From Pseudoxanthobacter soli DSM 19599 (lineage in GTDB: Bacteria > Pseudomonadota > Alphaproteobacteria > Rhizobiales > Segnochrobactraceae), in the NCBI RefSeq assembly GCF_900148505.1, contig NZ_FRXO01000016.1:1-64000 (forward strand): a stretch of 64,000 bases of DNA, written 5' to 3'. This document shows, one piece after another, positions 54,751 to 59,219 of this stretch. Made by a program: the position numbers and the translations under genes. Each line of letters begins with the position of its first letter. Within the stretch, counting starts at the first letter, position 1. The notes beneath the pieces are model-generated. The model saw only the letters and a program-made list of their open reading frames with translations. It had not been told where the DNA came from and ran no database searches.

Positions 54751-55269
54751 TCATCTCCCGGCAGGCCATCCGCGCAGGTGCCGGTAGCGGCGGGCGATAA
54801 GGGCGTCGATGGACAGGATGCCCGGTCCTCGGGCGATCACCATGAGGAAGCAGGTCGCCCACACGCCGTGGGTCGGCCAGGCATCGGGATAGACCAGCAC
54901 TTCGATCACCAGCGTCATGCCCAGAAGCGCAGCGGCGGAAAGGCGGCTGGCGAGACCCAGAACCAGCAGAACCGGGAAGGCGTGCTCCGCAAAGGCCGCG
55001 AGATGGGCGGCGAGCCACGGATCGACCAGGGGCAGCCGATATTCCTCCCTGAACAAAGCGACCGCGCCATCGGTGACATGCCAGCCCTCCACCTTGGTCT
55101 GGCCGGATTGCCAGAACACGGCCGCCGGGAAGACGCGGGCGCACAAAGTGAGCAGCGACAGCGGGATCGCGTCGAGCCGGTCGCGCAGATGCAGCGCGAT
55201 CGCGACGAGGCCGGGGTCGCGGGTGCGGGAGGACGACGCTTGGTGCGGGGTCGTCAGATCGGCGGTCAC
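54751..55269 (-). CDS. DoxX-family membrane protein of the bufferin cluster
   Basis: 172 residues with four hydrophobic segments. LTLCARVFPAAVFWQSGQTKVEGW, the loop HLAAFAEHAFPVLLVLGLASRLSAAALLGMTLVIEVLVYP and DAWPTHGVWATCFL are typical of DoxX. The start is GTG at 55269 with GGAAGGAGA ahead, overlapping the upstream gene stop as GTGA. DoxX proteins commonly accompany DUF692/DUF2063 genes; their exact role is unclear, possibly quinone-linked redox. Confidence 0.9.
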   Translation of the reverse strand: MTADLTTPHQASSSRTRDPGLVAIALHLRDRLDAIPLSLLTLCARVFPAAVFWQSGQTKVEGWHVTDGAVALFREEYRLPLVDPWLAAHLAAFAEHAFPVLLVLGLASRLSAAALLGMTLVIEVLVYPDAWPTHGVWATCFLMVIARGPGILSIDALIARRYRHLRGWPAGR

Positions 55270-56018
55270 GGCAGGTCTCCTTCCGTGGGGTCGAGATGGA
55301 TCGCCAGCCGCCCGCCGATCAGTTCGGCCAGCGCTGCGGTGAGGTCGAAATCCGGATCGTCGGCGCCGGCCGCCGCGGCGGCATCCGGGAGCGGATCGCC
55401 GCCGGCGAGGGCCAGGAGAAACGTCGCCGTGCTGGTCGGGAGGGGGCGGAGAACGACATCGAGGCCCGGCCGGTCGATCAGCACCGCCTGCGGTCTCCAA
55501 CCGGTCACCTCCGCTTCCGCGCCGTTCGCCGCGGCGAGAATGTCCCACACCGGATGGGGCGAGCCGATCACGGTCACCGCCGGGTGCAGCCGGATGCGCA
55601 GCCGTTCGAGTGCCCCCGGCGGCAGCCCGGCGAAGGCTTCGCCTTGCAGCCGCGGCAGATCGGCGGCGTGATAGGCGCGGGTTCTGGCCGCCTCGATGCG
55701 GGCGATATCGGCCAGATAGGGCAATTCGGCCGCCGGCCCGAAGCTGGCGAGGAAGCCGGGCAGGGCGTCGCCGAACTGCGCCAGCAGCGGCGAGGCGGGT
55801 GGATGGCGGCGAATGAAATCGCGTGCGGTCGCGCGGAAGAACTCCTCTCCCACCAGGGCGCGCACCGCCGGGAAGCGGGTCTCCAGCGCGCGGATCAGGC
55901 CGACGGCGACATTGTTGCGATAAACGGCGAAGCGGCGTTCCGAGGGGCCAGCGAGACCGTCCGGCAGACGGCGGTCCGGCGCGGTCAGCCCGGCGGCGAA
56001 CGTCGCGAGCCCGGTCAT
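55266..56018 (-). CDS. bufC: DUF2063 protein, MNIO partner (BufC/HvfC-like)
   Basis: 250 residues from 56018 (MTGLATFAAGLTAP). RRFAVYRNNVAVGLIRALETRFPAVRALVGEEFFRATARDFIRRHPPASPLLAQFGDALPGFLASF is the DUF2063 core. In bufferin and related RiPP systems this protein binds the precursor and presents it to the MNIO enzyme. An ATG at 56069, three bases after the bufB stop, would add 17 polar residues and cannot be ruled out. The gene lies between bufB and doxX. Confidence 0.92.
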   Translation of the reverse strand: MTGLATFAAGLTAPDRRLPDGLAGPSERRFAVYRNNVAVGLIRALETRFPAVRALVGEEFFRATARDFIRRHPPASPLLAQFGDALPGFLASFGPAAELPYLADIARIEAARTRAYHAADLPRLQGEAFAGLPPGALERLRIRLHPAVTVIGSPHPVWDILAAANGAEAEVTGWRPQAVLIDRPGLDVVLRPLPTSTATFLLALAGGDPLPDAAAAAGADDPDFDLTAALAELIGGRLAIHLDPTEGDLP

Positions 56019-56072
56019 CGATCGCGCCCCATCATCGCTTGAGCCCGTCTGGGTCGAAGCCCGGGTCATGCT

Positions 56073-56927
56073 TCAGGCCGCCCGGCTGCGGGAATGACGG
56101 GCGAGCACGGCGCCGGCGCGCGCGACCTCGGCGCTCAGAACCGGCCACTCCGGCACGTCGTTGTCCCATTCGATCAGGCTCGGAAGCGGGCCGGTACGGC
56201 CGATCACCTCCTCGAACAGCGCCCACACCGGATCGGCGACAGGGCTGCCGTGGGCGTCGATGAGGAGCGGCGCGCCGGTCTCGTCCGTGTCGGAATCATG
56301 GCCGCCGAGGTGGAGCTCGCCGACCGCCTCGAAGGGGAAATCCGCCAGGTAGGCGCGCGGATCCGTGTCGTGATTCACCGCCGAGACGAAGACGTTGTTG
56401 ATGTCGAGCAGCAGGCCGCAGCCCGTGCCGGCCACCAGCGCGCCGAGGAATTCGACCTCATCAATGGTGCTTTCCTCGAAGCGCAGATAGGTCGACGGGT
56501 TCTCCAGCAGCATGCGGCGGCCGAGCGTGTCCTGCACCCGGCGGATGTGATCGCCGACCCTCGCCAGTGTCCCGGGAGTATAGGGCAGCGGCAGGAGGTC
56601 GTTGAAGAAGGCGCCGTCGTGGGTCGACCACGCCAGGTGCTCCGAGAAGCTCTCCGGCCTGTAGCGGTCGATCAGTCTCCGCAACCGGGCGAGGTGGGCC
56701 GTGTCGAGCGGTCCTTCGCCGCCGATGGACAGGCCGACGCCGTGGACGGACAGCGCGAAACGCTCGCGAAGCGCGCCGAGTTGGGCATGGGGCCGGCCGC
56801 CGTCGCCCATATAGTTCTCGGCATGGATCTCGACGAAGGCGGGCGGGTTCGCCGCATCCGCGAGGATGGCGTCGAAATGCGCTGGCTTGAAGCCGACGCC
56901 GGGGCCGGCGGGGAGCGACATGGGCAT
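56073..56927 (-). CDS. bufB: MNIO (DUF692) multinuclear iron oxidative enzyme, BufB-like
   Basis: 284 residues, TIM-barrel DUF692. Metal-ligand and active-site segments are visible: [78 protein letters not shown] and IDAHGSPV. Known MNIO enzymes use two or three irons and oxygen to convert precursor cysteines to heterocycles (thiooxazole in bufferins). The start at 56927 is picked because GGAGG lies six bases upstream; ATGs at 56939 and 56921 are alternatives. Confidence 0.95.
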
Positions 56928-57015
56928 GAGATCCTCCATGGAAGCGGGAGGGCACCCGTGCGGCGCCCTCCACCGGAAATGACGGCCCGGTTCCGCTGCG
57001 GCCGGAGCGCGCCCC

Positions 57016-57080
57016 TCACTTGGCGCGGCTCACATGGCGCGGCTCACATGGCGCGCCTCACGTGGCGCTCCTCACATGGG
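57016..57080 (-). repeat. 14-nt tandem repeat array at the bufA 3' end
   Basis: On the plus strand four units TCAC(A/T/G)TGGCGC(G/T)(G/C)C follow each other without spacers (57016, 57030, 57044, 57058), plus a partial fifth unit at 57072 that contains the bufA stop and last codon. On the minus strand every unit reads ATGTGA or a one-base variant, so the bufA ending has been copied downstream about four times into the bufA-bufB gap. Confidence 0.85.
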
Positions 57081-57368
57081 CTGAAGGTGGCCCATGCCCT
57101 TCGGGGTCTTGATGGTCTCACAGGTTCCCTTGGCGACGTACTTCCAGGCCTTGGCGTCGTAGTCGACCTTGGAGGTTCCGGCGCACGTGGTGCCGGCACC
57201 GGCGGCGCAATCGTTCTGGCCGGCCATCGCGACGCCGTAGCACTTGTCCATGGTCGGCTGCGGCGCGACCGGGCCGGCGGCGGCGCTGGCGACCATGCCG
57301 AGGGCGGCGACGAGCGAGCCGGCGAGGGTGGCGACCGCGAGGGTGGTCTTGCTGGTGGTCGTGGTCAT
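57072..57368 (-). CDS. bufA: DUF2282 exported peptide precursor, bufferin BufA1-like
   Basis: 98 residues. Residues 1-31 are a signal peptide ([22 protein letters not shown]). The mature peptide of about 65 residues has four conserved cysteines, C43 (KCYG), C54 (QNDC), C62 (TTC) and C83 (KGTC), in the DUF2282 pattern. In Caulobacter such peptides are modified on cysteine by BufB/BufC and sequester copper in the periplasm. The start at 57368 follows GAGAGGAC. Driven by the sigma-type promoter at 57439-57464. Confidence 0.93.
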
Positions 57369-57438
57369 GGAGAACGTCCTCTCTGAAGGGGCTGATCGGC
57401 GTCGACGGCGGGTGTGCCCAACCGACGCCACCTCCTTC

Positions 57439-57464
57439 TTCGGAAGCGTCTGCCGCCGTGTTAG
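57439..57464 (-). promoter_or_regulatory. Putative ECF sigma promoter of bufA
   Basis: On the minus strand, CTAACA - N16 - CGAA lies 70 bp upstream of the bufA ATG. The divergent sigma gene has the same layout with identical 16-bp spacing. It resembles the GTAACC-N16-CGAA consensus I recall for Caulobacter SigF. Confidence 0.7.
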
Positions 57465-57522
57465 GGTGGCCTGCGACAAAATCTGGGGCCGTCAAAAAAA
57501 TGTCTTTCGGTTGTTGCGCGGC

Positions 57523-57548
57523 ATAACATTCGGCCCCCGACCGGCGAA
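57523..57548 (+). promoter_or_regulatory. Putative ECF sigma autoregulated promoter
   Basis: ATAACA - N16 - CGAA on the plus strand ends 12 bp before the first possible ATG of the sigma gene. It shares TAACA and CGAA and the exact spacing with the bufA promoter. The short distance implies a very short leader and favours the start at 57570. Confidence 0.7.
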
Positions 57549-57569
57549 CTGACCCTCGGGATGATGTTA

Positions 57570-58118
57570 ATGACCGATCGGGAGCGGCGCTGGGCCGGGT
57601 TGATGCAGGCTGCGCTCGCCGGCGACGGCGCGGCCTACGAACGGCTTTTGCGCGAAATCGCGCCGGCGATCCGTGTCGTGGTGCAGCGCCGTCTGACGCG
57701 TATCGGTGCGCCGGCCGCCGAGTGCGAGGACATCGTGCAGGAGACGCTGCTCGCGCTTCACCTGAAGCGGCAGAGCTGGCGGACGGGCGATCCGCTGGGG
57801 CCATGGCTCTGGACCATCGCGCGCAACAAGATGGTCGACCATCTGCGCCGGCGCGGACGGCGCGTCGAGGTGCCGGTGGAGGATTTCGCCGACGTTCTGG
57901 CCGCACCGGAGGAGCGCCCGGGCACCGAAGCGGCTGATGTCGAGAGGCATCTCGCCCAGTTGCCCGAGAAGCAGCGGGACGTGCTGCGTTCCATCGCCGT
58001 CGACGGGAGTTCCATCGGCGAGACCGCCGAGCGCATGAAGATGACGCCCGGTGCCGTGCGCGGTGCCTTGCACCGCGCCTTTTCCAGCCTTTCGGCGCGG
58101 CTGAGGACGGACGGATGA
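57570..58118 (+). CDS. ECF-family RNA polymerase sigma factor (SigF-like)
   Basis: 182 residues from 57570 (MTDRERRWAGLMQAALAGDGAAYERLLREI). Region 2 is in CEDIVQETLLALHLKRQSW...PWLWTIARNKMVDHLRRRGRR and region 4 in LAQLPEKQRDVLRSIAVDGSSIGETAERMKMTPGAVRGALHRAFSSLSARL. ATGs at 57561 and 57564 are alternative starts. It is followed 13 bp later by a DUF1109 anti-sigma gene. It is divergent from bufA and probably activates both arms through the paired promoters. Confidence 0.94.
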   Translation: MTDRERRWAGLMQAALAGDGAAYERLLREIAPAIRVVVQRRLTRIGAPAAECEDIVQETLLALHLKRQSWRTGDPLGPWLWTIARNKMVDHLRRRGRRVEVPVEDFADVLAAPEERPGTEAADVERHLAQLPEKQRDVLRSIAVDGSSIGETAERMKMTPGAVRGALHRAFSSLSARLRTDG

Positions 58119-58131
58119 AGGACGGGAAGGC

Positions 58132-58767
58132 GTGAAGACGGACGATCTGATACGCGGCCTTGCGGCGGACGTGCGACCGACGCGCGGACTGGGGGTGGGG
58201 CTTGCCCTCGCGCTGGCCGCCGGGCTCGCCGGCGCGCTGGTGCTGTTCGCTCTCGTTCTGTCGCCGCGCCATGGCATGCCGGCGCTGCTCGCCGAACCGC
58301 GCATCCTGCTGAAGTTCGCCGTCACCCTTTCGCTGGCCGTCGCCGCCGGCTGGACCGCCCTGCGCCTGGTGCGGCCGGGCTCGAAAGCGGCCGGCCCGGC
58401 GCGGCTGCTGGCTTTGCCCGCGGCGCTTCTGGCTCTCGGCGTGGCGGCCGAGATGGTCGTGACCCCCGAAGCGGACTGGATGCCCGGCCTCGTCGGGCAT
58501 TACGCCGTTTATTGCGTGATGCTGGTGCCGGTGATGTCGGCCCCGGTGCTGGGCGCTGTCCTGCTGGCGCTGCGGCGCGGCGCCCCGTCCCGCCCGGCAC
58601 TCGCCGGCGCGGTCGCGGGGCTGATGGCCGGCGGGCTCGGCGCAGCGCTCTATGCCTTCCACTGCATCGACGATTCGCCGCTCTTCATGCTGACCTGGTA
58701 TGGCATCGCCATCGGCATCGTCACCGCGGCCGGCGCGGTCATCGGACGGCGCGTGCTCGCCTGGTGA
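58132..58767 (+). CDS. DUF1109/NrsF-family membrane anti-sigma factor
   Basis: 211 residues with six predicted helices and short loops. KTDDLIRGLAADVRPTRGLGVGLALALAAGLAGALVLFALV is the typical DUF1109 opening with the short cytoplasmic N-terminus. Known NrsF proteins hold the sigma factor at the membrane until metal or oxidative stress; candidate sensing cysteines are in HYAVYCVMLVP and YAFHCIDDSP. GTG start at 58132. Pairing with the upstream sigma gene is standard. Confidence 0.92.
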   Translation: MKTDDLIRGLAADVRPTRGLGVGLALALAAGLAGALVLFALVLSPRHGMPALLAEPRILLKFAVTLSLAVAAGWTALRLVRPGSKAAGPARLLALPAALLALGVAAEMVVTPEADWMPGLVGHYAVYCVMLVPVMSAPVLGAVLLALRRGAPSRPALAGAVAGLMAGGLGAALYAFHCIDDSPLFMLTWYGIAIGIVTAAGAVIGRRVLAW

Positions 58768-59174: not shown

Positions 59175-59219
59175 TTGCCTAGACAATAAAGTGCGGGTAG
59201 CACTTTATTGTCTAGTCAA
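59175..59219. promoter_or_regulatory. 45-bp inverted repeat upstream of the Nik-like operon
   Basis: Arms of 20 bp match at 19 positions; the inner 16 bp are perfect (CTAGACAATAAAGTGC and GCACTTTATTGTCTAG) around GGGTA. It is AT-rich against a GC-rich background and ends 40 bp before the first gene of the transporter operon. It is a strong candidate operator or an RNA hairpin in the leader; the cognate regulator is not in the window. Confidence 0.7.

Follow-up and report, generated by a model that had tools for sequence, protein, structure and literature searches.

A bufferin-type gene cluster of Pseudoxanthobacter soli with its own SigF/NrsF pair, predicted promoters and a hairpin behind the precursor gene

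The stretch of Pseudoxanthobacter soli DSM 19599 DNA analysed here (NZ_FRXO01000016.1, positions 1 to 64,000, or C16:1-64000 of a 5.16-Mb genome in 27 contigs; hereafter the window) holds at 54751-58767 a six-gene cluster, in which bufA, bufB, bufC and doxX lie on the minus strand and sigF and nrsF diverge from them on the plus strand. We are confident in reading it as a self-contained Buf1 bufferin module, governed by its own SigF/NrsF switch and devoted to periplasmic copper buffering. Judged by its genes, the cluster is a typical and complete representative of a known bufferin cluster, and by homology we infer the Cys oxidation and copper binding of BufA; as such, it adds another example to a widespread system of copper buffering. 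The initial annotation of this DNA had proposed a bufferin-type cluster in divergent arms, a proposal now borne out by the family scans, the BufB equivalog and the like arrangement in 31 of 81 relatives. To this the present analysis adds a predicted promoter pair, a hairpin and a set of 14-nt repeats.

The six genes and their proposed mode of action

All six open reading frames (ORFs) are open at their respective coordinates and each exceeds the cut-off of its own Pfam family in the profile scan, the six scores being far above chance. Every family named in the initial annotation was recovered: a DUF2282 precursor with four Cys, an MNIO enzyme with its DUF2063 partner, a DoxX protein, and an ECF sigma with a DUF1109 anti-sigma. 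The precursor BufA (57072-57368, minus strand; 98 aa; PF10048, 87.9 bits against a cut-off of 22.4) has an N-terminus that, read by eye, is hydrophobic with small residues, and bears Cys at positions 43, 54, 62 and 83. In alignments with the window, the first three of these are kept in 81/81 loci and Cys83 in 80/81, this set comprising the best 80 of at least 589 BufB relatives from a scan of the genome collection plus L003, which comes from the family of the window itself. Two BufA-like ORFs are seen in 16 of the 81 relatives (L011, L015, L021 and 13 others), mostly Rhizobium.

The maturase BufB (56073-56927, minus strand) belongs to the MbnB_TglH_ChrH family (PF05114, 339 bits) and surpasses the NCBI bufferin-maturase equivalog NF050167 MNIO_BufB (365 bits; cut-off 310). 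Its start is probably at 56927 instead of the ORF end at 56939, because a GGAGG with a 5-nt spacer stands before the former. Many BufB positions aligned to the best solved relative, 3bww, are nearly invariant among the relatives; these are putative iron ligands. The MNIO partner BufC (55266-56069, minus strand) is a DUF2063 protein (PF09836, 89.8 bits, above the family's cut-off), which reaches only 41.6 bits with the HvfC equivalog (cut-off 142); in the same equivalog scan, HvfX was likewise matched beneath its cut-off. The last gene of this arm, doxX (54751-55269, minus strand; PF07681, 59.6 bits, scanned as the longer ORF), probably starts at the GTG at 55269, which overlaps the bufC stop, giving 172 aa instead of the 265-aa ORF. 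No second MNIO or DUF2282 gene was found elsewhere in the genome at E ≤ 0.001.

On the other arm, SigF (57561-58118, plus strand; start at 57561, 57564 or 57570) scores 253.5 bits with NF009165 (cut-off 198) and is also over the cut-offs of PF04542 and PF08281. The adjacent NrsF (58132-58767, plus strand) is over that of PF06532 (182 bits); the narrower anti-sigma-F NrsF equivalog NF042994 was not reached (84 bits; cut-off 300). Its Cys128 and Cys178 are both present in 32/32 aligned sequences. For each of the six genes, dN/dS against Ancylobacter is about 0.13-0.29, with dN well below dS; by this measure, the cluster is under purifying selection.

Among known systems, bufferin 1 of Caulobacter crescentus (CC3252-CC3257; nrsF-sigF / DUF2282-DUF692-DUF2063-DoxX) has the same six genes in the same divergent layout, with SigF promoters on both arms and an NrsF Cys pair (PMC3511200). 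By alignment, the members of that pair, C131 and C181, are the counterparts of Cys128 and Cys178. It differs from the window in its SigF motif, published as GTAACC-N16-CGAA (PMC3511200), the first G of which is replaced in the window by C or A, and in a regulon that adds a further DUF2282-DUF692-DUF2063 cluster together with a gene for YedY/MsrP, whereas the window's genome encodes one MNIO. In Sinorhizobium meliloti, the ECF16 system rpoE7-ecfR7 / SMb20527-SMb20530 likewise has its DUF692 and DUF2063 genes in a divergent operon, with two promoters, and the layout of the SMb20527-20532 locus equals that of the window (PMC6180224); its -35 elements read TGTAAC, with the G that the window lacks. 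The closest BufB among the matches listed, 82% identical, is from Ancylobacter oerskovii, whose locus (L004) has all six genes and the hairpin, with BufA 83% and SigF 78% identical to those of the window, but differs in having GTAAC at bufA, Val in the SigF helix and no 14-nt array. The EGKCG captophorins (fontiphorin, oxazolin) and methanobactin also pair an MNIO with a partner protein, but their precursors are of the EGKCG type or MbnA rather than DUF2282 (PMC12452194, PMC12668002).

By analogy, the module most likely works like the Caulobacter bufferin 1 system, and we advance the following mechanism for it. At rest, the inner-membrane NrsF would hold SigF. Metal or oxidant stress would act on the two conserved Cys of NrsF, by analogy to Caulobacter C131/C181, and thereby free SigF, which would fire the only two real-looking sites of its type in this genome: its own predicted promoter (57524-57548, plus strand; TAACA-N16-CGAA preceded by A, with the first ATG 37 nt on), resulting in autoregulation, and the predicted bufA promoter (57439-57463, minus strand; the same motif preceded by C). 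The ensuing bufABC-doxX transcript would yield the precursor, and BufB with BufC would turn some of its four Cys into thiooxazoles by oxidation ahead of Sec export; the exported product would then buffer periplasmic copper. A hairpin in the bufA-bufB gap (56947-56971, minus strand; an RNA element with a 10-bp stem and a 5-nt loop) may shield the bufA part of the transcript or set it partly apart, leaving more precursor than enzyme. The genes, their layout, the conserved Cys, the pair of promoter motifs and the hairpin of the relatives are seen directly in the sequences; the promoter activity, the signal, the Cys chemistry, the copper binding and the roles of the hairpin and DoxX we infer.

Published work on the Caulobacter system is in line with several of these steps: thiooxazoles were assigned in bufferin 1 (PMC12668002), Cr and Cd induce the SigF regulon, which is also expressed more strongly when the NrsF Cys are substituted (PMC3511200), and Cu induces the regulon in all conditions tested, with a sigF mutant being Cu-sensitive (PMC8224329). 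Some observations weigh on the other side. The S. meliloti equivalent is described as giving no response to H2O2, Cd or chromate (PMC6180224), and the cluster of C. metallidurans is cited as leaving Cu resistance unaffected (as cited in PMC8224329). Further, both promoters in the window are without the consensus -35 G of (T/C)GTAAC, which is a consensus of the group and not a definition of the protein family, and the predicted fold of the bufA-bufB gap in the window is no more stable than those of its shuffles (z -0.96; -1.6). The silence of the S. meliloti fusions under three stressors (PMC6180224) would also suit a bufferin whose chief target is a different metal or some oxidant (gold, silver or HOCl), with copper secondary, as would the induction of the gig homologue of C. 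metallidurans by Au, Ag and Cu (PMC8224329) and the answer of the Brucella ECF16/DUF1109 system to HOCl (PMC8315932). Given the copper sensitivity of the Caulobacter sigF mutant and the induction of its regulon by copper under every condition tested (PMC8224329), we hold this alternative to be unlikely and prefer copper buffering as the principal role.

The predicted promoter pair and the SigF recognition helix

We take the two sites in the 192-bp bufA-sigF gap to be the probable ECF16-type promoters, one per arm, because their motif resembles both the published ECF16 consensus, (T/C)GTAAC-N17-CGAA (PMC8315932), and the Caulobacter SigF motif. The motif recurs in the relatives far more often than its reversal. 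The exact pattern TAACA-N16-CGAA has four copies in the genome (the reversed control has seven), two of which lie in this gap and diverge, one for each arm, such that a TAAC-N17-CGAA core precedes both; of the other two, one sits at a tmk/holB-type junction and one within an efflux-type ORF (gene names by eye). Across the 32 divergent regions, or 64 arms, furnished by the 31 relatives and the window, TAAC(A/G)-N15-16-CGAA is found in 24 arms and its reversed form in 0/64, with 200 mononucleotide shuffles giving a mean of 0.21 arms and a maximum of 3. If the CGTAG form of Rhizobium is accepted too, a choice made only after the sequences had been viewed, the ECF16-like motif rises to 56/64 arms (26 bufA and 30 sigF, the window counted) against 1/64 for the reversed pattern. 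The predicted -10 box of sigF, CGAA, lies only 12-21 nt 5' of the possible starts (57545-57570), and because of this short distance the sigF mRNA may be almost leaderless.

A wider regulon was considered and rejected: the relaxed TAAC(A/G)-N15-16-CGAA matches the genome at 30 places as against 64 for the reversed control, and the ORFs downstream of them, inspected by eye without a family scan, offered no clear target. Two Oxidored_molyb (MsrP-like) loci are present in the genome, neither at a listed motif site.

The base before TAAC sets the window apart from its relatives: it is G in 54/54 matched arms of the relatives (8 arms matching neither motif form being left out) as against C at bufA and A at sigF in the window, and GTAAC was not found on either strand of the window's divergent gap. 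The closest SigF relatives in 397 genomes of the order came from 29 loci besides the window's own, and these supplied 22 matched arms (16 sigF, 6 bufA), all with G; this set overlaps with the 31 relatives in at least one case, as L172 has the same promoter letters as L044. In parallel, residue 168 of SigF, in the region-4 recognition helix that reads the -35 element, is Gly in the window and Val in 31/31 relatives, and Val168 is also found in 29 further SigF loci (26 + 3). A role for Pro163 of SigF in the promoter change was rejected, as L163-L165 have Pro163 and still GTAAC.

Since three changes thus fall in one lineage, it is worth testing whether the -35 specificity of SigF has changed jointly with both promoters (Val168 to Gly; G to C/A), which would shield the module from the genome's second NrsF-type sigma pair. 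If true, a sigma factor would here have co-evolved in nature with the two promoters of its regulon, and such a possibly rewired pair in so minimal a regulon is one of two details of the cluster that could matter; we offer it tentatively and consider it rather doubtful. It is somewhat more probable that the missing G and Gly168 reflect neutral drift or mild decay, with promoter specificity unchanged. The confinement of the changes to one lineage agrees with drift, as does the structural comparison: in Bacillus subtilis SigW (6jhe), T171 contacts base -34 and R175 reads G-35 (PMC6713349), and by alignment Gly168 falls on T171, while R175 corresponds to an unchanged Arg172. Hence, the link from Gly168 to the missing -35 G, as judged by this alignment, is close but indirect. 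Against drift stand the alteration of two promoters at the same position, together with a helix residue that is otherwise Val in all 31 relatives, and the purifying selection on the genes.

The second NrsF-type sigma pair is on contig C5 (L124, G000:C5:261500-266500; NrsF domain, 63 bits), and its sigma has Val, as read by eye, at the place of SigF Gly168. A GTAACC-N16-CGAA lies about 250 nt upstream of this second sigma gene and another GTAACC-type site just downstream of the second nrsF. The former is no more than suggestive as a promoter, both because of this site behind nrsF and because GTAAC-N16-17-CGAA is without genome-wide enrichment (10 sites, the control having 38).

The hairpin and the 14-nt repeats behind bufA

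In most close relatives, a hairpin follows the precursor gene, a placement that could set the precursor-to-enzyme ratio; this is the second detail of the cluster that could matter. The bufA-bufB gap was judgeable in 77 of the 81 loci, and in 75 of these its best hairpin exceeds the shuffled mean by 2 SD (20 dinucleotide shuffles each); the stem sequences differ between loci, and the usual place is 6-30 nt past the bufA stop. Likewise, a score of at least 24 within 60 nt past the stop is attained by 71/78 bufA genes but by only 61/360 of the remaining long ORFs in these loci. The folding energy of the whole gap is a weaker signal (mean z -2.2, with 43/77 below -2), the control region of equal length upstream of bufA giving a mean z of -1.1, with 19 below -2.

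The idea that all bufferin loci have the hairpin was rejected: in a wider set it reaches this score in 10 of 34 loci (7 of the 34 gaps being too short), which divide into 10/22 in the window's class, where of the others 5 tested lower, 4 had gaps too short and 3 had no bufB behind bufA, and 0/12 outside it, where 3 gaps were too short. We read it as a lineage trait that may raise bufA over bufB RNA. None of the terms hairpin, stem-loop or terminator turns up in the main text of the five bufferin or ECF16 papers searched, and a library search likewise brought up nothing on it among the matches listed.

Instead of stabilising the message, the hairpin could act as a leaky transcription terminator, for which its place directly past the precursor gene and the short T-runs 3' of the stem in some relatives (e.g., L016, L060) might speak. 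The window has no T-run, however, and a terminator scan found nothing at the hairpin; we regard termination as possible but the less favoured reading. Searched against Rfam, the window has none of its families at threshold.

Between the bufA stop and the hairpin lies a tandem array of 5.1 copies of a 14-nt unit (57009-57079, running over the bufA stop codon; TRF score 100), which is probably the product of local slippage at that stop. No second such array was found in the genome. As a conserved element it was rejected, there being no comparable period-14 run in the gaps of the relatives, alongside the window gap's z of -0.96.

Spread of the cluster and neighbouring features

Of the 81 loci, 31 have the sigF-nrsF pair pointing away from bufABC, and in 24 of these doxX is also visible in the DNA fetched; the other 50 are without the sigma/anti-sigma pair inside the fetched DNA, some of their contigs being short. 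The cluster is not a rarity, since 63 of the 299 genomes sampled across the phylum carry a DUF2282 gene (its own genome counted), the wider captophorin class is claimed to have more than 20,000 RefSeq examples (PMC12668002), and the layout is published for Caulobacter and Sinorhizobium. Of 72,556 plasmid records, 352 encode a BufB relative, 73 of these being from Escherichia. Bufferin-type clusters on plasmids include one that lies downstream of a TetR-family gene on a conjugative IncF plasmid of E. coli (L155), one adjoining an IS66-type element on an E. coli IncC plasmid (L157), and one near merR/merC on a Burkholderia glumae plasmid (L159).

Inclusion of the neighbouring nickel-type transporter in the module was rejected, its NikA-like and IclR proteins being without a match in the loci of the relatives (E 1e-4). 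Just 5' of the gene for the NikA/oligopeptide-type binding protein (59260) is a perfect inverted repeat (59179-59215; 16-nt arms, 5-nt spacer), which ABC-transporter-like ORFs also follow. Its 15-nt half-site has no other copy in the genome even when up to 2 mismatches are allowed, so the repeat may serve as a private operator.

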